Under the pieces are notes generated by a model. It ran no database searches, was not told where the DNA came from, and saw only the letters and a list, made by a program, of their open reading frames with translations. 64,000 bases of DNA from assembly GCA_947561715.1 (NCBI GenBank), contig OX387201.1, positions 18,118,001 to 18,182,000 of the forward strand. Reading direction: 5' to 3'. Below, piece after piece: positions 1,483 through 39,400 of this stretch (position 1 is its first letter; each line of letters begins with the position of its first letter). The position numbers and the translations under genes are program-made. The stretch is from Ascidia mentula (lineage: Eukaryota; Chordata; Ascidiacea; Phlebobranchia; Ascidiidae).

Positions 1483-4400
1483 TCGGGTGAAATGGAAGCA
1501 ATTTTTTCAAAGGCTTTGGGAATTTATCTGAGTAAAATGAAGGTAAATGCTTTGGTGATTGTTATTATTTCAAGATGGTGATTGTTGTATATTTGTTAAC
1601 AATTAAATGCTATCTGATGGTATGAAAACTTGACGCTTTTTGCAGGAACAAGAATGCACATGCAAAGATGATGTTTTTCAGCAACATTCTTTGGCGAATG
1701 ATGAAGCAAAGCAACATCTTGAGACAGCTTTAGACCCAAAGTTTTCTCAAGTTGTTTGGGGTGAAAAATGCTATTCTTTGCTTTTGTTATATTAATGTGT
1801 ACTGGTTTTAACATGGCAAAAGTCCTCGAACAAAATTAGTAGTTAGAAAAAAATCGTTCAATTATTGTCAGATCAACAAATGCTGAATTTCAATTTGACT
1901 TTGCAAGAAAAAAGAGATGCAATTATCAGTGAGATTGAAAGTGCAAAAAAACAAGAGGTAATCATGATTGCCTGGAGTTATTCTGAATTTGATGTGCACC
2001 TTTGTGCAAAAGTATTGTGTTCTAATACATGGATTGTTTTAGAATGTGATGCACTGCTTACAATCGAATGCTGTTAGCAGCTACAGGGAAAGCATGGTGG
2101 TGAGTTTCCTTGTAATGTTGAATCAATCAATTTACTATATTTGTGGAAACTTGTGGCAACTATTTGAACTCTATTTTAAGCTGAACAAAGGGAAATACAG
2201 AAAAAAAATTATTTTTTATTAGTCAATTTGTTGTGACTATTAGTCAGACAACAAGGATATTATTTGTTCATTTCAGACATTTGTATTTTGCTGTTCCATT
2301 GAACCTGTTTTGTTTGTGATTTAGGAAGCTCTATTTGCAATGGAAGAACCATTTGAAGAATGCCACAAGAAATGTTTGAAGTCTGGAAAAAGAATTCTCT
2401 CTTCGTCGCAACTTTGGGCAAATGCAACGTTGAGGAAACAAATGGAAAGTCAGTTTATTGAAAAGGCAGAGAAGGAAAAATCTTTCTTGGGAAGTTATTT
2501 CAAAGTAATTGTTTTAATTTTTTTAAATACTACACAAACACATTGTTAATCCTAATATCACAGTTAGCAATTAGGATAATTGAAATTGCATGTGGGTTTG
2601 TGCATTAAATTTTCTTGCATAGCAAATATTTTTTTGTGTTGGATAAAAGTTTTATTTTAGAGGAAACACGATGCCACCTACTTTGAAAATGAAAAGAAGT
2701 TAGCAGCGAAATACCATGAACTTATGGATAACGGGGTAAGAAAACTTGAAACTGTTATTTGTTTCACTTCCAGTCATCATTTACATATTCACAGCTCAAA
2801 GCGAAGATTTGTTTATATCTTAATATTTCTTACTAGGTGTAAAACCTAGTTTTTATTGTTAGTTCGTTAATTATTTACTGATGAAATGCACAATGATTTC
2901 GTAATTGATTAAACAACATAAGTGCATGACACTGAAATGTTGTCAACGAAAATCGTTTGCAAAAACTGTGGATCATTCTGAACAAACATAACATCAAGTG
3001 ATTCAATCATATTTTCATACAAGGACAAGCAGAAGTCAATTTGTAATAAACATTTTAAATGCACATTGTTTTAGATTTTGGAATTGGAGAACATCCAAAA
3101 CTTTAAAGCCTTACATGGCCGTGCAGTGAGTCAAGCTTATCAACATCTAAAGTTAAGCAAGAAGTTATCGAAAGAAAACGGTGAAATGTTGAGAGAGAGT
3201 TTGACCCCGTTCAAAGAAAAATACCTCGAGATGTTTGAACTTAATCAGGTAATTACAGCAAAATGGTTTAGGTTTTTTATTACACTGTTTTAACTCATAA
3301 GGTCTCATCAATGCTGCCATGGCAAGATTGTCCACACCACGTTGCACTGATAAGACTTGATAGGTTGAAACAATGGCCATCTGTATGCAGCTCACAAAAT
3401 TCATATTATTGATCTCCATGCTCATTTATTTTATATGCACAAAAGCCATAATATTCAATGAGAGCTGCAGACAGGTGTACACACTGTTTCGACCTGTAAG
3501 GTCTCATCAGTGCATCTGGTGACTGTGGCACAAGGCTACATTTGCTTGGTATATTTATTGCGCCCAATGTGGTTTGTCTACGATCATTTGTAGCTAGTTT
3601 GGTACCCAACATATTGACAATTGACTAAAAGGTGCCACAAAGTGGAAATCTGTGTGCCTGCAAGTCTACCAGTTAGCCCTGAGCCCGGCGGGCCACATGG
3701 ACTAACCTTGTGGACCATAGTTTAGTGACCCCTGGCGTAGAGTTACATGCCCTTAGTTAATCTTTTCCTTTAGTTATCATGGATTTGCAACATTAACTAG
3801 AGGATGTTGTGGCAATATCTGGGTTTTGTTGCAGATCTGCATCTTGTGTCTCTCTTGATTCCAGTGTGAACACACCAGCTATGATAAATTATCATTGAAC
3901 ATTTTACTTGATCTGTTACTCTATTTGTAGGAACTTAAAGCAGCAGAAGCCAGGTTAAAGGTATTGGAGGACCAAAAGCTTGCTTCTAAGAAGGTACAAA
4001 AATGTTTACTGTGAAAAAGAATTTTGCGGTCGGTTTTACTTTGTGTATTCAGTGCTTATTTTAACACACTTAGTTGATGTATTGAAATACCAACAATTTT
4101 GTAATGTGTTGCGAGATCTATGATTGGAAAACAAACATGTGATGCAACTTTATGTTGAAAGAAACGCTTTTGTCAATGCAGTAATTCTGCACACAGCTGA
4201 CAACCATTAAGTTAGATTATGATCAGTTTAACAAATCCATTACTTTAGGCTGTGGATTGTTTTGTTCCTCCGAGCGAACTGACGTTTTCCATGGACAAAA
4301 TTATTGACAACGGAAACTTCAGGCTTGTAAAGAAAGCGTGGAATGACATGCATGGAAATGTAACAGTGCAGTACATTAACATAGAGGACGGAATATCGAC

Positions 4401-28588: not shown

Positions 28589-30413
28589 TTAGAAGTTCTC
28601 AAAATGGTGAAGAAATGTTGCTCCGTCGTACTTGTTCAAAGAACTGCATGTTTTCTCCACAGAATTGGTCATGGGCGGAGGCCCACAGCTGAAAACGCCG
28701 AACTGCTCGACCTGCGCAACACATAAATCATATTTTATTTACGGTTATCGAGATTTATATAATGGCAACATATCACATATATCGTTGAACTTAAAAAATT
28801 CATGTACTTGTGGAGATTCGGTATTTTTTTTTCACAATAACGTTAATATTTGTTTTGTTACGTATTTTAACATTCGACTACCCGTATACATTCCAGGTAT
28901 CTACTGTACATTTTGATCACACTCGCAAATAAAAGCGATTTTTACCTGGCTGTGTTCGTCCGAAAGAGAAACGAAGAATGATTTGAAGTCTGGTCTTCCG
29001 AAATGTGTGACAGCCCTCAAACCGGTAAAGAGGGATTTCCCGGCCACCTTCTGGAAGTGTCTCTCGCAAATATACTGCAAAGTAACATTGTTAACTCTGA
29101 TAAACTACATTTGTGCACCCTAAGGATTTATAAATTAAATGCACATCAGAGATGCATGCACTATGAGAAGAATACATGTTTTAAAAACCCCAAAGAAGCA
29201 GATAACAAAGTAAAACAATTGAACTTTTATCGCCATGCTTCACATAACAGTTGTCAAGTTTCGTTTCAAAGCCAACAAATGCCATGAAATAAGCGATAAA
29301 ATGGATTAAAACTTTTACCAGCATGGTAGTTCGCAAGTCAAATTTTCCAGGGAACTGTGTGATGAAGATATGAGTATCCAGCATTCCCATTTTATCTTTA
29401 GCTTCCACTTCCTGGATAATATCGGTCAACCATTCGTATTGCTTCTGGTCTCTCGTAATCCACATAAAGTACACCTGAAAAATAAGTATTTAGATAGGGA
29501 TCCAGTTGATACGTTTGGGGATTGATTTTCTTGCTGACGTCATCACCACACATTTATAGTCGTAGGCTTTACATCAGCATCCAAACACGCGCTGTCAAAC
29601 TGGCTATTTTTGCAATAAAATGCTGACAAGAATGCATGTCTCGGGCCGATAAAACGTAACCGTGAACAAATGCTACTGCTGCTTGTACATTCTCGAAATT
29701 ATTTCTGGCTGGATCGAAGTTTTTAAAACCGTTTGGAGTAAAATGTAAAGGAGTTGACTTACCCGCTTGCATTGGATCTTAATACCGGACTCTGCAACGT
29801 TGATCAAATCTTTCAGAATGGAGGCAAACGGTGTTACCCCTATCCCACCACCGACCAACACGGATACATCATACTTGTACCAATCTTGGTGGCCTTCCCC
29901 GAACGGACCGTCAAGATAAATCTGGCCAATAGAAATGATATGTTATAGTTTCTCTTTAAAAGAGTTTTTTTTTGGTTCCACTCTCTGACATTATTTTCAA
30001 AATGTTGCGCTCCCGATTTAGAAATAAATACAATTCAAAACAGGCTTTTTATTTATTTTTAATTACACTCCTCAGTAACAGGGGTTGTGAAATTCCTGTT
30101 GCTGCCAGGCATATTGCAATTTAAAATGTACTGTTCTTCTGGCATACAAAATACGTGCTGTAAAGGGGTTGTTTTTGAAACCAGATGTTTAATGCGTGGT
30201 TAAGTGGATGACAATGCACATCACAGTGCGCCAGTTACATACTTTCGGGTAAGGTGAGTCTCTCAGTATTTCAGGATTGTAAATGTTCCTTAAATTCATT
30301 GTCCAAGGTCCGACGGCTCTGATGTGCAGTTTAAGAGTGTCCTCGTGAGGTGCTGACGTCAAAGTGAATGGATGATATTCGCTTGGGGATTGTGCTAAGC
30401 ATGCGATACGAAC
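28589..30413 (-). other. DUOX: DUOX FAD- and NADPH-binding domain (exons 29-33)
   Basis: HPFTLTSAP in exon 29 is the FAD-binding signature. [10 protein letters not shown] and [14 protein letters not shown] in exon 30, [16 protein letters not shown] in exon 31 and FSCGPPPMT in exon 33 form the NADPH site. The protein ends FENF with TAA at 28591-28589, the usual NOX-family C-terminal aromatic. Confidence 0.92.
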
Positions 30414-33400
30414 CTATATAAGAAAAGTATTAGTTTTCGCAGAGTTTTATTAACAGAACATAGTAATGCTTAGTGAGATGTAGACAGCTGTGCACATCGT
30501 ATCAACGTCGATTGCAAAGTCACCACAAAGTGGAATAGTCTCTGCCAGGCGAGTTAGCCGGAAAGACCGTCGTCAGTCACCATATGCACTGATGAGACCT
30601 GATAGGTTGACATAATGTGCACAACTGCCCGCCGCTCACTGATCATCATTGGCTCTTTACTTGTACATAAATAATTCCACATTCCCACATGCCCCACTCA
30701 CCCATTGTCCAGCTCTGTAAGTAAAGTTTGCGGGTCGCTTGAACTCCACGTAAGTTACTTCGGAAGGAAGGAGTTCGGCCTTAACCACTGAGATCTCGTT
30801 CTTGCTTCTGCTCAGGCTGTAAAGCTTATCGAGCGTATAGAGAACTGCAGGACCGAGGAAGAAGTAGTAGAAGAAGGGGTCCTATACGATAATTTACAAG
30901 CTTTACTTGGGTGAATAAAAATACTAGAGAAAAGTAACTACGAATAAACACATTCTTTGTTGATTATCACGAATAATAATAGAAATTTAAATCCTCGTGC
31001 CTCCATGAGTAGAAATAACAGTTCCACATGAAGTTATTGTGTATAATTTTACAAATAATCACCTCATAGATAATAGTGTTAAGGTCAAGTCTAAAGTTAT
31101 AATGTTTTTGTTACCACACACTTTTGCCATTGCACACGTTTCTTACGTGTACTGTGGGCATAACGTAGCCGTCATGGAATGTTTGTCCGGATCAAGCTTA
31201 CCTGAACGAGAAATCCTGCCCCATGAAGAACCATGAACAAGTAAAGCAGAACGTATCCAAAGTTGTGGGTCCACCAAAACCATTTGAACAGAAGACGTCG
31301 CGAGTAATCAGACGCAAACGTAAACCTGCAAAGAAGTGTGAGTTTATTTCCTATGAGGGGAATCAGACGCAAACGTAAACCTGCAAAGAAGTGTGCGTTT
31401 ATATTTCCTATGAGGAGATTTTTCGTCTGAGACTCATTGAACTATAAACCAGTCTATCATTCACCAAGTCAATGACATTGAATAGGTTTGTCAGGCCACG
31501 TATTTTGCATCCCAAAATTTAACTAGTTTTCTTGGTAACCTAGGAAGCATTTTTTATCTTTTATTACTCACATGATAATGACGACGACCGTGAGGAAGAC
31601 ACCCGTGAGTCCCGTGATGGTTTGCCAACACCAATAGTGAAACTTGGGCAGAGTGTCGCTCGTACGCCAGTAGTCACGGAAAAGACAATTAAGATCGCCG
31701 GGTGTTTGTGTGGAGATGGAATAAATGTTCATCGAGTGACCGAGGATATGCATTACTGCGACACAAACACGAAACGTAAAGGTGGCAAAAAATAACAACT
31801 TTCTTAGGTCTGCACTAATCTTTAGTCATTTCAAAGCTCTGCTTTTAAAAGTTTTCTTGGACAAAATCATAATCAATAGTTTTTACATCACTAGAAGAGC
31901 TTTGCATTGACAAAAATAACGTTTTAAACACAATATAACACATATCTTTTAAATATTTATCAAAAACAAACATAAGTTGCCACCAAGCAGTTTTAGGTTG
32001 GTGAGAATAACACAATAATAATTTAACTTACGGATATTTGAAAAACAAAAACAAAAAACAATGTTTTTTTTGCATTTTTGTGTGTTAGGAACTTATGTTT
32101 CAAGAGAATGCTTGTTTATCCCAAAGAGCTTTTGAGCTTTGAGCTTTCTTTAATAAGCTTCAACGGCTTTCATTTATCCCAACCTATCTTATTGTGTTTT
32201 GTCATCTCCTTTTCACGTCCAACAAAATTGTTCATACGTTAAGCAAGTGAAACCCACCAGTGAAAAGCAAGGCAAGCCAGGCGATGATTCTATGCATGGT
32301 GATAGCGGAGTCGAAGGGTATGTAGCGGTGAAGGAAGGTTTCCCTCAGAGCAGTAATGGTATTTCTGCACATTGTGATGAGCAGACAGGAATACGTGAAC
32401 ATCATGGCGGATGCAGCGCCTCTAGTGATCGAAACGCCGTAACCGGCAATACGTCGGAGGCCCACGTGCTCCCTTTCCACGGAGTAATCTGAGTGTGTGC
32501 AGAAAAACATCGCGGTTATTTTGTAAGGGGATGGAAAACTTTAATTAGTAATTAGTCGACTTTGCATACATACACACATAAGGTAAAGTTTCGCATAAGA
32601 GTCAAGTGTACTTACAATAAGCTCTCTCAACGAAAATTCCAGCCAGCACCAGGAGGTATAAGGTAAGCCAGAAGATGTGGAGACGATAGTTTTGCACGTA
32701 ACGTTCTATTGCGTTGAAGGTTTGTTCGATTTTGCTGCTTGATTCGCTCTTCTTGTACACTTTCACCTCGATGTGACTTTTTGTCGTTTCTTTCTTAAGC
32801 TGAGCCCTGCGTGGAGATATTAGAAATGAGAATAATCGAACTAAGATATGCAAACTTTCTATAAGGTGTTGGTATTTTTGTAAATATTTTATTTTAAATT
32901 TTTAGTCTTTCAACACACCATAGTTAGTGAAATCACGTTTTCTTCTGGACAATATTGAAGAGCCATTGTTGCTTCAAACAATTGGTTAAAAATAACAAGT
33001 TCAATCTATAGCTCACTATTACACACAGGTTTACACTTTCAAAATATCGATTATGATCGGAAAAATATTGCAAATTTGGTCTAAAACATGAAATCTCACT
33101 CAGTTAAACAGCAAGCACGCAATCAATCTAACTCCAAAACCAATCGCCTATACAATCTTGTATTTACGGTTTCCACTTTGGCTGTGTGATGGTAACCTTT
33201 TTATGTCGCGATCTGCTTAGCCTAAACAGTTCTTTGTGTTTAAAAAAAGCTAAAACATATCTACTATGTTAAAACATATCTAGCAGTTCCGTTTGGCCAT
33301 AGTGCGCTCCACAGTGGTTCGTCGTCTCTGTTGTTCGGTACCTAGTATAGGGTACCCTGCAGATCGACGTTGACCGAAAGGTACCACAAAGTGGAGACTA

Positions 33401-36400
33401 GTGTGCCTGCTAGTGTGAAAGCTAGCACAGTGTCACTCAACAGCTGCACTGATGAGACCTTACAGGTCGAAACAGTGCGTGTACACACCCTGTCTGCAGC
33501 TTTGCAATATTATGGCTTTTTTTGCACATATATCTACTAGTTTTAATATTTCAGCAGCTGTGTATAGCGTTAGGAAACGTATATGATACACACACCAGCA
33601 CCACTGAATGTCATAATCTACTTACTTGGATGCATAAATTTTTACGGTGTTTCTGGCTCTGTTGATCTTGGTTTCACGGACAGGCGCTGAGTGCATGATT
33701 GTGTTCACTCTTTCCTTTTCCGCACCTGCTGGTCCTGTTAAGAAGTGCTTCAGTTTTAAAGAACGCAGAATTGGCCTCTTGCATGTTTTATGAAGGCAGG
33801 CAATGTCCACCATTTAACAGAAAGTGGGTTTTGGCCGATCAAGTGTTCCACGTGCATTGTTTAGCCTACTTTGAGTCTTTTCATTCGCCTCAAGAGGACA
33901 AAATTCAAAATTTGGAACGAACACCAATGACGTAAATAAAAATGGAAAAGTAAAAAACATAAAGATATAAAGTAAAGTTCCGAAGCATTCCGATTTACAA
34001 AAACAATGGTTAATTTGATTGGTTCTTAAGAAAACCGGGTATTGAAAATGTAAAATGAGTATAATAACAAATCCCCAAGGATCGATCGCTAATCCACACG
34101 AAATTTACCTTTTTTTTTCTCGAGACATTTTTCCACGTAAGCTACAAGAGATAGAAATCATAACGTTTTAAATTAGTCTTTATTTGTGCGTTTAAAAACA
34201 TTTTTCGACCAAACGAACAAGCACAGCCTTCGCCGTACTGATCTATTGGCGACCATCCGCAAAGTTTGGACAAAACCTTATCATGGGGAAAACAATAACC
34301 AGCGTTTTTGCAAAACCAACTTGAGTGAGTGCCTAAGTTATTAAAAAGAGACTGCTAAACCCGAAAATTTCAGAAACAATTGGAATAAAATTGCTTTCTG
34401 ACAAATAGCTTTTGCCTTCCCGCATGTCACATGTTGTACCTGGCATGTGAAGCGAGGCATCGCTCAATTCTGAATGGTAGTTTAGCATGATGGTCTGGAA
34501 GTCCTTGAGCGTTAAATCTTTGTTTCCTCCGCCAACTTGACTCATCATGGTTTCGACCAGTTCATCGATTTGTTCGGTAACCACACTGGCGTTTACCATC
34601 TCCATCATTGATCTGAACGAATAAAAAACGATTATTGCGAAATCTTCATGGTCAAGTTAAACAGTGTCAGACTTGTTTATGGTGGGTGGTATGGCTGTTT
34701 TAAGTGCTTTTTACTTTTAAATCGGTTGAGTAATGATAGAGTGAAACACCACTTCGCACATATACAGTGATATCGTTTCCAAAGAATACTTTAAACCACA
34801 GCAGAAGTGAAATTAAACAATTTTAATGAGACAAAACAGATTTTGACCAATATATATTTTTTTTATTTTTAAAGTTATTAGACGGCTTTCAAACATTTAA
34901 AAATCTAAAGGGATAGAAACCAGCGAAAAATGTTCCCTATGAACGATCGCTCGTGAACAATGCCTTACTTAAGCATTGTTCTGAACTCTTCTCTCGACAG
35001 TTCTCCACTCTTATCCAGGTCGTACATATTAAACATAAGTTGCGCCTTCTGATCAGGAGAGCCTGGAAATTAAATCGTAGTTAGGAAGAGGGTGTGACCT
35101 GCACTGAAAAATGTGAAAACAGCTTCACACGTGTTTCTCGTTCTATAATATAGGCATAGTTTAAGACTCACGGAAGGGTGACAATTTGGACAGCATGAAC
35201 AATGCAGGTTTGTAGATTGTTTCGTTTTATATTTAACTTAAAAGTGCTGGCAAATAAACTGCTGGTTTGCATATATTTTGCGGCACTTGGAATAAATCCT
35301 ACTAACATAAATTGTAACATACGGTCAAATGTTATCACTTGAATGTCACAAAAATATGGTTTTATTTGCAGTTTTTATATTTATAGGATGTTCACTGTCA
35401 AGATTTTTGTCAAGATTTGGTCAAAGATTTTGTTTTATTTACGTTGTGCACATTTATGTTATTACTGCTTATGTCTGTTTGTTAACATTTGGTGAATGAT
35501 GTCGAATTATCAAGTTTGAGCAACAGAGTCACAGATTTATTTTGCGCCAACCTTTAGTAAAGAGAACCATAATGTCGAGGAACTCCCGGAATGAGATTGC
35601 CCCGCTACCGTCAATGTCGGCAATGTTGAACATTTGCTCAACAAACATGCTGTCGGGTTTGAGTTTCAGGTACTCGGCGAATTCCTTTTTGCTCAACTCG
35701 ACGTGGATAAACTTGCGGGCTTCTTTCAGGTCGGTCACTGTGCTTGTGTCGTTTGTTTCCAACTTAACGGTCTGTAAAAAAAAAGTTACGTAAAACCGGT
35801 ACGAACAAAGATAAAAGCATTACAGTGTTGTTACTTTATAACATTCATTCAAAATTTGTTTTCATTCAACTGAATTCAACCGAAAATTTATATTTTTTTA
35901 GTTTGATAAAAAAAATCAGTCAAACTGCCTTTGTTCTTGTATTTTATAAAACAATTATGCTTTGATATAAATTTGGCTTGACGGAAACGAACAAATATTG
36001 CAGGTTCTGTGTGAGCGCAACTTGTTTATACGTACTGCAGCAAGGGCGGCGGTGAAGAACTTCTTTAGCTGTTGATCTCTCATCTCCTTGGTCATGGCTT
36101 GTTCCATCAACTGCTTATGCCCAACTTCTTCTTCACTTATCTCCTTGTTTTGGGAGCGGAAATACTTCTGTGCGCGCATGATGAAACTGTCCCTCTCCTC
36201 GGCGTCGTTGAACGACAACACCTGGGGACAAAATTAACCAATAACGAAACATATTGATAAGCAAGTGGAGCCAATAATGAATTTTGTAAGCTGCATACAG
36301 ATGGCTACTGTTTTGACCTGTAGGTAAGGTTTCGCCTAGTTTAGTGCCCAACGGATGACAGTGATTGTCTTTGCCTTGCTGTTTGTTCGACAAAGTCGTC

Positions 36401-39400
36401 TGATAGTCACACCAGCTGCACTGATAAGGCCCAATTGGTCGAAATAGTGGCCATCTGTATGCAGCATTCACGAAACAATATTGGCCCAAAAGCGAGACTT
36501 TGAATTTAAACAGATGCTATTTTTGCCAGAAATTTAAATTTGATTTAATGGAAGTTCATATTGCCTGATTTTTTGCACGTAATTCTAAGTAACTAATCTA
36601 ATTCATTTCTGAAGCAGCCATTTAATAATAGTAATAACATTTTGCATCAAATTGTTCTTTTTACTCACCATATCCGGGGTCTCTTTTTCAATGCGGATGA
36701 ACATCTCAGTTCTGCCCTTGTTGTAAGTCTTAAAGATTTTCACCTTTTCCGACTTGGTCATGTCGATTAAACGTATTGGTCGGCCAGTCACAGTCTTGAT
36801 GGCGAGATGATGATCTGGTCCAAAAACGATCTGTAAAAAAATAACGACAACTTTTGTACAGAAGCAAATTGTTGACAAACTTGTACCATCAATGACACAT
36901 GAATTTAATTAAGAATAATTCGTTTGCCTAGAAGAAATGTGAATAATTGATACTCGCTACGTTATAGACATCAGATAAAAGTCATGTTTGTTTCGTTTTA
37001 TTAGTCAGGATAATAGCCAGAAATGACAAAGATCGCAAGTTCAAACCCCACTGGGAGTCCAATCTCCCGCATTTGTTCTCAACATCAGTTGACCCAAGTT
37101 CACAACCCTGTCCCACGTCCATAACACCGCAAAAAATCTAATAACACGTTTCCACACCTGAACTTCGCGAGAGGCTGAAGGACTGAGCATTTCGTTGGCA
37201 ATATCTCCAACTTCTCCCTTCTGGGCACTTCGCTTCTTGGTCGCTGCCCGTTTCTTCAGGGAGATTTTGTGTTTCTGAGCTCGATTTCCCAACAGCAACA
37301 TGAAGAGGATCACCACTGAATAAATACAACAGAAACAATGCTCAAATTAATCGTGTCTTAAGCACGACCTGAAGCCTCCTAACTATTTATTCGCGCTGGG
37401 GTTTCAACTGGGATACCACAGATACATATCGCATCAGTGTTCACACGATTTTCCCATAAAATAAATTTATTCCTGTCGATTTGGCAGCTTCAGTAACGAA
37501 TCTTTCATGATGGAAGACATCCACAAACATTTGAAAAAATAAAATTGATACAGACAGGAACAGGGTTTCTAAACGGTGACCCAAATAGGGCCACGAGTTC
37601 GCACTGGGAACGCAAATAACTAATTTTCTCAAAGTAGTTTCATGTATGTGGTTTTTGCTTCGTTTTTAGTCATGGAACGTTTTTAGCCATCTGTGTTTTT
37701 AGTGGATGAGCAAGGGTTCACTAAGGGCCGAGAACCACTGAAAAAGCTCAAGACCAGCACAACTTACGGATGATGAAAATTCCGATGCAAACGAATGTAA
37801 GAATATAGGAGACCTCACTTCCACTGAAATAGTCAAATGTTTCCGGTGCAGTGCAATCCTCCATTTGGGTTTCGTTGAGCTGGTAAGGTTGTGGGCAGTA
37901 TTGATTTAAACCGTTCCCCTCTATGAACACAGGTAAGAGTGACGTTATTGGCTAAACAAGGAAATAGTTTGTGTGACGTCAATCATAGTTCATTGTGCAC
38001 ATGTCAAGATTACCAAGTTGTTTGATATGCACAAATTACAATTATTGATTGGTAGTAAATGAATTTGCCAAAAAAAAGTTTTCGTTGGGGATTCAGTGGA
38101 TTCTTCATTATCATTGCAAACATATGCATATTTTTCTTGTATAATGCCAGGCCCGCTGGCCACAAATCACTTTTGGTTTGATAATGCAGAAAAACATCCC
38201 TTTCTAAATTCAAATATTTATATATCTTACTGCTATTGTCCCATTGGAAGGGGTTGTCTTGAATATCATCATCTTTCATGCTGGGATTTGTGCGTAAAAT
38301 TACCTCACGAATCCCTGTGTTGTTTATTTTGTCGAATTCTTCATCGGTCAGAAGCCTTAAAAATCAAACAGAATTTTTTAAAGGCGCAAAACATACACAA
38401 CGTGGGCAACATTCAAGAAAACTACGAGTTTTAGTTTAAAAATGCCTATTTGCAAAAGCATACAAATTATAGGATATTCACACCAGGGTAGTTTCCAGCC
38501 ACTTACGGTAATCACGAAGCATCATTTTGCGTTATTTTTCGTCATGCAACGCTTCAGAGCAAGTTGTAAAAGCGTCATGATTTTTTTTCTCTGCCATTTA
38601 ACTCATGGAAGTCATAAGCAGAAATGTTGAAAAAATTATATTCTCACCCGTTGCCTCTGTTCTCGTACCAGAATCGATCTCCGTCTCTGATTCTAACGAA
38701 CTGGTCACGAATAACTTCTCGAAACAACTCTCCGGGACCTGCACTTGTGGTTTCAAGCAATCCACCCGTCCAAACATCAACCAAGCTTAAGTCGTTACGA
38801 TGAACGTCTTCAAATGCTTTTAAAAGCTGTAAGATATGCAGGATATTCATTTAACATTTAATCATATAGTATTGCCGTTTCAGCCATAAGCGATAATTAT
38901 TGTAAGTGTATAAAATAGGATAGTAAAGTATTCATGTACAATATTATATGACGTCTAATGAAGTCATTGTATTTTTAAAAGTCGTCTTCGCAGTCTCACC
39001 TCTGGTTTTTCTTGAAAAAGTGTCGGATTAACTTCGTAGAAGGTTGTTCTTGGTGCCATTCCATAACTTTTCCGTGCCGTGTTGTAATCCGGAAGACCGT
39101 GGTCTCTCCCTCTCTGCGAAAAAACAACGGAACCAAATTTAAAAAACATCAGTGTCATTTTCTTAATTGTAGCAGAACCTTGAGCCAATTTACACATACC
39201 ACTGACACAAATAAATTAGAGAAAAAACTTTAATGGTTTAAAACTAAACGCAGCTAGTTTAACAACCACTGTTTCAGAAAGAACTATTTATTAACAAAAC
39301 CGAGAAATGTTTTTGTATTTTTTTATCTAATCTTTTTCACAATCTCACATATTTAGAAAAATATTTTCCGTAGTAATGCTTCTGCCTTCTAACCTTCGCC

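Follow-up and report, generated by a model that had tools for sequence, protein, structure and literature searches.

Non-LTR retrozymes of animals carry type I hammerhead ribozymes in short tandem repeats, with RNAs of approximately 170–400 nt, a GC content below 50%, and target duplications longer than 4 bp; they co-exist with Penelope-like elements (PLEs), which were proposed as their carriers (Cervera and de la Pena, 2020, PMC7229834). The newt satellite and the amphibian retrozymes likewise have a type I hammerhead with a weak stem III, for which a dimeric form is likely (PMC7229834, PMC6155905). In PLEs, a hammerhead lies near the end of the copy, as in Anolis Poseidon (PMC11167929), and the 31-bp tail of Adineta Penelope is optional on one inverted pLTR (PMC3846280). 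For tunicates, the literature found was limited to a locus count, namely nine type I hammerhead loci in Didemnum vexillum (PMC8704543). The available main texts of PMC7229834, PMC7761336, PMC6155905, and PMC4918200 did not mention tunicate retrozymes.

The element described here was found in a window of 64,000 nt (the whole stretch of DNA that was analysed), placed on chromosome 5 of the ascidian Ascidia mentula. It is probably an animal-type non-LTR retrozyme of an ascidian, present here as a young copy in the genome and moved by Penelope-like machinery via circular RNA. With the animal retrozymes of PMC7229834 it shared the type I hammerhead, the short tandem repeats, a GC content of less than 50%, target duplications of more than 4 bp, and co-existing PLEs. 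It differed from them in its tunicate host, in its minimal hammerhead without evident loop I–loop II contact, in its head-to-head arrays with a PLE-type tail, and in its circles, which are predicted; the mussel retrozymes also lack most of the loop 1–loop 2 contact (PMC7229834). With PLEs it shared the hammerhead near the copy end (PLE1, PLE2, and Anolis Poseidon, PMC11167929), end classes approximately 26–42 nt apart (the same three and Adineta Penelope, PMC3846280), and head-to-head copies with a tail on one arm and target duplications. Unlike PLEs, its 291-bp unit had no reverse transcriptase or endonuclease, and stem III had 4 bp and a loop, whereas helix III is said to be missing from PLE hammerheads. 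The likeness to the newt satellite and amphibian retrozymes in hammerhead type, weak stem III, and probable dimeric form was taken from descriptions, and the unit lengths differed. Didemnum vexillum, known here by count alone, shared the presence of type I hammerheads in a tunicate genome. Animal retrozymes are already described; the new parts are the PLE-type ends and the variants shared within arrays and arms.

Direct reading and a rule-based scan showed a complete type I hammerhead motif on the plus strand at positions 33442–33501 of the window. Stem I (7 bp) consisted of 33442–33448 (AGCTGCA) and 33495–33501 (TGCAGCT). It was followed by the core CTGATGA (33449–33455), a 5-bp stem II (33456–33460, GACCT, and 33464–33468, AGGTC, around the loop TAC), the core GAAA (from 33469), and a 4-bp stem III (33472–33475, ACAG, and 33490–33493, CTGT) enclosing TGCGTGTACACACC. 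C17 was located at 33494, and the sequence predicts cleavage after this C. CUGAUGA, GAAA, and NUH formed a three-way junction with its open end at stem I, and visual inspection past the 7 bp of stem I revealed no loop I–loop II contact. The stem III loop contained the self-complementary GTGTACAC (33479–33486, plus strand), which, by direct reading and the dimer fold, allows an intermolecular stem III.

A strict rule (stems of 7, 5, and 4 bp) matched the window once and none of 200 dinucleotide shuffles, and a loose rule (4, 3, and 3 bp) matched the window twice and 4 of the 200 shuffles. Hammerhead-like similarity with at most 8 substitutions in 35 nt was present at nine places in the window. 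The structural rule was passed by only two of them, 33442 on the plus strand and 3466–3514 on the minus strand; the latter, also structurally complete according to the rule scan, represented a related subfamily and had a stem I of only 4 bp. The "nine or so related copies" of the preliminary description were thus found as similar sequences, and only two of them as structures. An older head-to-head hammerhead copy was observed at 36270–36485, where it formed a 49-nt inverted repeat with arms 80% complementary. In the genome (195.84 Mb, 79 contigs), the core pattern CTGATGAG-N8-20-CGAAAC occurred 2454 times, compared with 2 occurrences of the reversed-pattern controls. The exact 53-nt ribozyme of this family, designated family A, occurred 158 times in the genome and not in the controls, and a BLAST search with 33380–33560 gave at least 47 places of 95–100% identity. 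The hammerhead motif at 33442–33501 was therefore confirmed as real, and the preliminary description, which had proposed a multicopy type I hammerhead very unlikely to be a chance match, was supported overall.

The covariance check proposed in that description had a different outcome, since no Rfam family reached its gathering score in the window. The sub-threshold matches were Hammerhead_3 (25.8 bits, E 0.0023, cut-off 48.5) and the RAGATH-1 hammerhead (27.2 bits, E 0.016, cut-off 56.3). RF00163 gave no match over the whole genome and likewise none in its 14 control genomes. Six further loci with PLE or retrozyme motifs also did not reach the Rfam gathering score, and the loci of a second family, family B, gave weak matches below the cut-off. 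As the PLE and family B loci were missed too, the Rfam models were read as insensitive to such forms, and the result was not taken as a refutation. A type III reading, derived from the Hammerhead_3 match, needs an upstream GTGTC with T at unit position 230; it was rejected because this T was absent from the array unit. Among 17 distinct copies, 91.9% of the stem cells were paired, and none of the 16 pairs had changed on both sides, which was no better than with shuffled partners. The stem pattern of these copies is conservation, not covariation.

The minimum-energy RNA fold of the 60-mer was the hammerhead (-19.2 kcal/mol), with a mixed ensemble in which the stem I pair probabilities were 0.18–0.60. 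Two strands of family A paired into a double hammerhead whose stem III was lengthened through GUGUACAC, at -50.6 kcal/mol compared with -38.4 kcal/mol for a pair of monomers. In family B, the best monomer fold was not a hammerhead, and the best dimer fold was a hammerhead through UGGCCA (-47.7 vs. -34.8 kcal/mol). The dimeric working form suggested previously is thus plausible in silico. The A2 copy of the window gave no hammerhead fold, either single or as a dimer, and stem I was not formed in the predicted 291-nt circle.

The hammerhead was part of a retrozyme copy at 33282–33533 (plus strand, 252 bp), which covered 0.87 of a 291-bp unit. This copy was 5'-truncated at unit position 79 and had a long 3' end at position 39 past the cleavage site. 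It was 99.2% identical to a unit of an array on C70, with two differences, one of which (193A>G) was common to many copies. The target-site duplication of 10 bp, ATATCTACTA, was located at 33257–33266 (left copy) and 33530–33539 (right copy, overlapping the ATAT end of the element), and a filler of 15 nt (33267–33281) separated the left copy from the 5' truncation point. On the plus strand, the segment from the cleavage site to the "short" 3' end, where one arm terminates in head-to-head insertions at other loci, was 33495–33505; the "tail" of approximately 26–28 nt, which copies lack unless they have the long 3' end, was 33506–33533.

The unit formed head-to-tail and head-to-head arrays with a period of 291 bp and up to 7.65 units. 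In the array at C70:2551–2555 kb, 4.42 plus units were located head to head with 7.65 minus units. The unit length was within the approximately 150–450 bp of tandem retrozyme repeats, each unit had a hammerhead, and the GC content of the unit (L015) was 47.8%, below the 50% limit of retrozymes. No frame with reverse transcriptase and GIY-YIG, as in a PLE, was present in the unit, the frame from the hammerhead ATG being one of 70 codons. In the L015 unit, this open frame started at the ATG within CTGATGAG and continued past the long 3' end; perhaps it arose by chance or is a relic of a PLE frame start. The unit lengths of 291 and 285 bp were both multiples of three.

Family B had a unit of 285 bp, and its 29-mer occurred 705 times in the genome. 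When one unit of each family was compared, the hammerhead stretch was identical at 33 of 35 positions, and one further same-strand BLAST block of 14 nt was found. Families A and B both existed as pure multimers. Hammerheads of a third type, with the loop TGACA or variants of it, were observed at nine places, 31–201 kb apart, in C1:1183600–1765413 (L045–L051, L055–L057), with a minus-strand copy head to head at a distance of 79 bp at eight of the nine places, as if these places had been copied within a larger duplicated segment.

The ribozyme had been described as lying in a DUOX intron. A DUOX NAD-binding exon frame was present at 29676–29942 on the minus strand (dual oxidase 1, 7d3e, E 1.2e-20; PF08030). 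Two further open minus-strand frames with DUOX-like exons, recognised by eye and without a Pfam match, were located downstream (32605–32901) and upstream (34336–34656) of the ribozyme-bearing intron, the limits given being stop-to-stop limits and not splice sites. As these two frames flank the ribozyme, it lies in what looks like a DUOX intron, and this part of the description stood. The ribozyme on the plus strand was, however, antisense to DUOX on the minus strand, so that action on the DUOX pre-mRNA is not expected, and a role in DUOX splicing was rejected since the DUOX gene is on the opposite strand. The ribozyme reached this site recently, as part of a dispersed mobile element that inserted here, and is not a property of the DUOX intron. 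A 42-nt direct repeat (98% identical, 55 nt from start to start) was also observed at 31306–31402, overlapping a DUOX-like minus-strand frame.

Shared flanks of at least 9 nt (9–15 nt) were present at 16 of 26 insertions, compared with 0.9% of 650 mispaired flanks, and a shared 9-nt flank was absent at 10 of the 26; the inner limits of L084 and L089 were wrong in this count. Target duplications in these 16 insertions were therefore longer than the 4 bp that define those of retrozymes. By eye, the 3' ends of family A past the cleavage site fell mainly into two classes, "short" (approximately 10–13 nt) and "long" (approximately 36–39 nt; GCACATA to GCACATATAT). The automatic values were 11–19 and 37–50, a wider spread because AT-rich flanks extend the alignments by chance. 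In family B, the two classes ended at 13–17 and 43–55 nt.

One long and one short arm were found in 11 of 12 head-to-head insertions of family A, in both of subfamily A2, in all six of family B, in three of three of PLE1, and in the one of PLE2. The total was 23 of 24, which has a probability of about 1.5 in a million if the ends are independent with equal odds. In the family A exception (C72:9794k), one end was long and the other was inside the hammerhead. At L084 (C73:6092k), the second arm was only approximately 20 nt and yet had the short site as its end, and ACTAACCAA lay on either side of the insertion; with this short opposite arm, the number of family A pairs was 12. The scored loci were non-random, being the best BLAST matches and, for the most part, the places that came first in the list for C1, and the count covered head-to-head insertions with both outer ends (L103, with one outer end, was left out). 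Repeat views and duplicates (L013, L024, L029, L040, L041, L042, L052, L053, L071, L102, and the C70:2552k views), L099 (a single arm with the same flank as L100), the TGACA-type pairs (L045–L051, L056, L057), and two old window pairs were also left out. Among 17 single-direction insertions of family A, counted apart from the pairs, 14 ends were long, two were short (L010 and the triplicate L093–L095), and one was elsewhere, namely that of the single-direction array L088 (C2:19215k), which ended at unit position 101. The tail was thus on one arm of head-to-head copies with a target duplication, as in PLEs, and the pattern resembles the published Penelope "tail". These copy ends suggest that Penelope-like retroelements copy the element from small RNA circles.

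Autonomous PLEs were present in the same genome, as is the case for retrozymes, and GIY-YIG gave 121 matches. Five of them were arranged in tandem in a head-to-head array with a period of 2870 bp at C67:6134–6147 kb, and the frames of this array (C67:6132500–6149500, L073–L077) were 892, 885, 559, 892, and 892 aa. A second PLE family had frames of 801 aa. Both frame types had RVT_1 and GIY-YIG domains, found for the 892-aa type within the 617 aa examined. At 9 of 14 further loci, the GIY-YIG match was followed 174–291 bp downstream (501 bp in one case) by a loose hammerhead pattern. Several different hammerhead-like motifs were observed after GIY-YIG frames (L108–L121, L061–L080), some of them with very short palindromes in stem III (ACGT and AGCT, read by eye), which is consistent with dimeric action.

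The presence of these PLEs raises the alternative that the repeat is a deletion derivative of one PLE, with tandem pLTRs and no coding frame, and not an independently evolving retrozyme. The end classes and the head-to-head layout are as in PLE1 and PLE2, the pLTRs of PLEs also hold a hammerhead and the frame start (PMC3846280, PMC11167929), and the 70-codon frame passes the long end; all of this would fit such an origin. However, no PLE with the retrozyme hammerhead in its own pLTR was found at the 34 GIY-YIG loci examined (some overlapping, out of 121 matches), so that no PLE partner is named. A blastn search with the 291-bp unit (E 0.01) in L061–L082 gave nothing besides an old hammerhead copy in L080, and the pure multimers of both families also argue against derivation from a PLE, which we consider unlikely but worth keeping in view.

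Some variants were shared within arrays and between arms. 55T>A was present in all three units of the C72:13402k array and in no other examined locus. At C1:18857k, 65A, 75A, and 193G were present in all covering units of both arms. 235C>T was present in both arms at C72:9794k and in no other examined locus, and 280A>G, common to both arms of C67:6335k, recurred among the examined loci only in L084. Such sharing would follow if a single RNA had served the array and both arms, the simplest case being a circle read more than once round; the shared variants may also stem from the transcript of an array that was homogeneous beforehand. Private differences on one arm only, which may be later mutations, were found at C2:17310k (259A>G), C70:14387k (249A>G), and C1:1562k (163G>A, 170A>G).

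For the retrozyme moved by Penelope-like machinery, we infer transcription, cleavage, circles, and the identity of the moving enzyme as follows. The 291-bp unit would be transcribed from multi-unit copies, and the type I hammerhead, probably paired via the palindromic stem III, would cut the RNA into 291-nt monomers, which a host ligase would close into circles. A Penelope-like reverse transcriptase would copy the circle, often for more than one round, at a staggered break, with one strand starting approximately 36–39 nt past the cleavage site and the other approximately 10–13 nt past it. Copies made in this way would be dispersed and 5'-truncated, arranged in tandem or head to head, and accompanied by target duplications. 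For inverted Penelope copies, self-priming of the cDNA has been proposed (PMC3846280); for these arms it is less likely, because two long ends would be expected.

A stronger form of this mechanism, which we advance only tentatively and which may well prove wrong, is that both arms are made together by the Penelope-like enzyme from one circular RNA, that the far-site start on one DNA strand and the near-site start on the other are obligatory, and that the hammerhead monomer circle is the true template of retrozymes and PLEs. Purified Anolis PLE uses two adjacent internal start sites and cleaves both strands (PMC11167929). That study also found that mutating the hammerhead left insertion in vitro unaffected, regarded unprocessed RNA as the principal substrate, and saw the ribozyme cleave only when protein was supplied. 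RNA-seq reads did not terminate at the cleavage position, and the start sites were alike on both strands in vitro. These results argue against a need for circles and against the strand rule.

Mobilisation by a LINE, through target-primed reverse transcription and twin priming, would also give target duplications and variable 5' truncation, and LINE-like 15-bp duplications were reported for Nematostella repeats (PMC4918200). In the Ascidia insertions, however, both outer ends were near the 3' end of the element and at two sites, as in PLEs. Twin priming inverts the inner 5' part, and only one end is the 3' end of the element. A LINE is therefore an improbable agent. Ordinary satellite DNA, spread by unequal exchange and carrying a functionless relic hammerhead, would account for a short unit in tandem arrays, but these arrays were short, dispersed, and often inverted, had target duplications at their flanks and two end classes, and had the hammerhead as the best conserved stretch between the compared A and B units, which makes a satellite very improbable. 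A chance match to the hammerhead rule, for which the unreached Rfam gathering scores and the lack of covariation could be cited, is practically negligible in view of the shuffles (0 of 200), the genome-wide count (2454 vs. 2), and the conservation between families.

The enzyme that moves animal retrozymes was unsettled in the 2020 papers, in which PLEs were named as likely candidates (PMC7229834). With the retrozyme of Ascidia mentula, a compact chromosome-level chordate genome offers young retrozyme arrays, open PLE frames, and a common end signature, which makes the question of the enzyme directly testable. The Ascidia arrays supply natural templates for assays with PLE proteins, and the finding adds a tunicate element and a proposed mechanism to the animal retrozymes.
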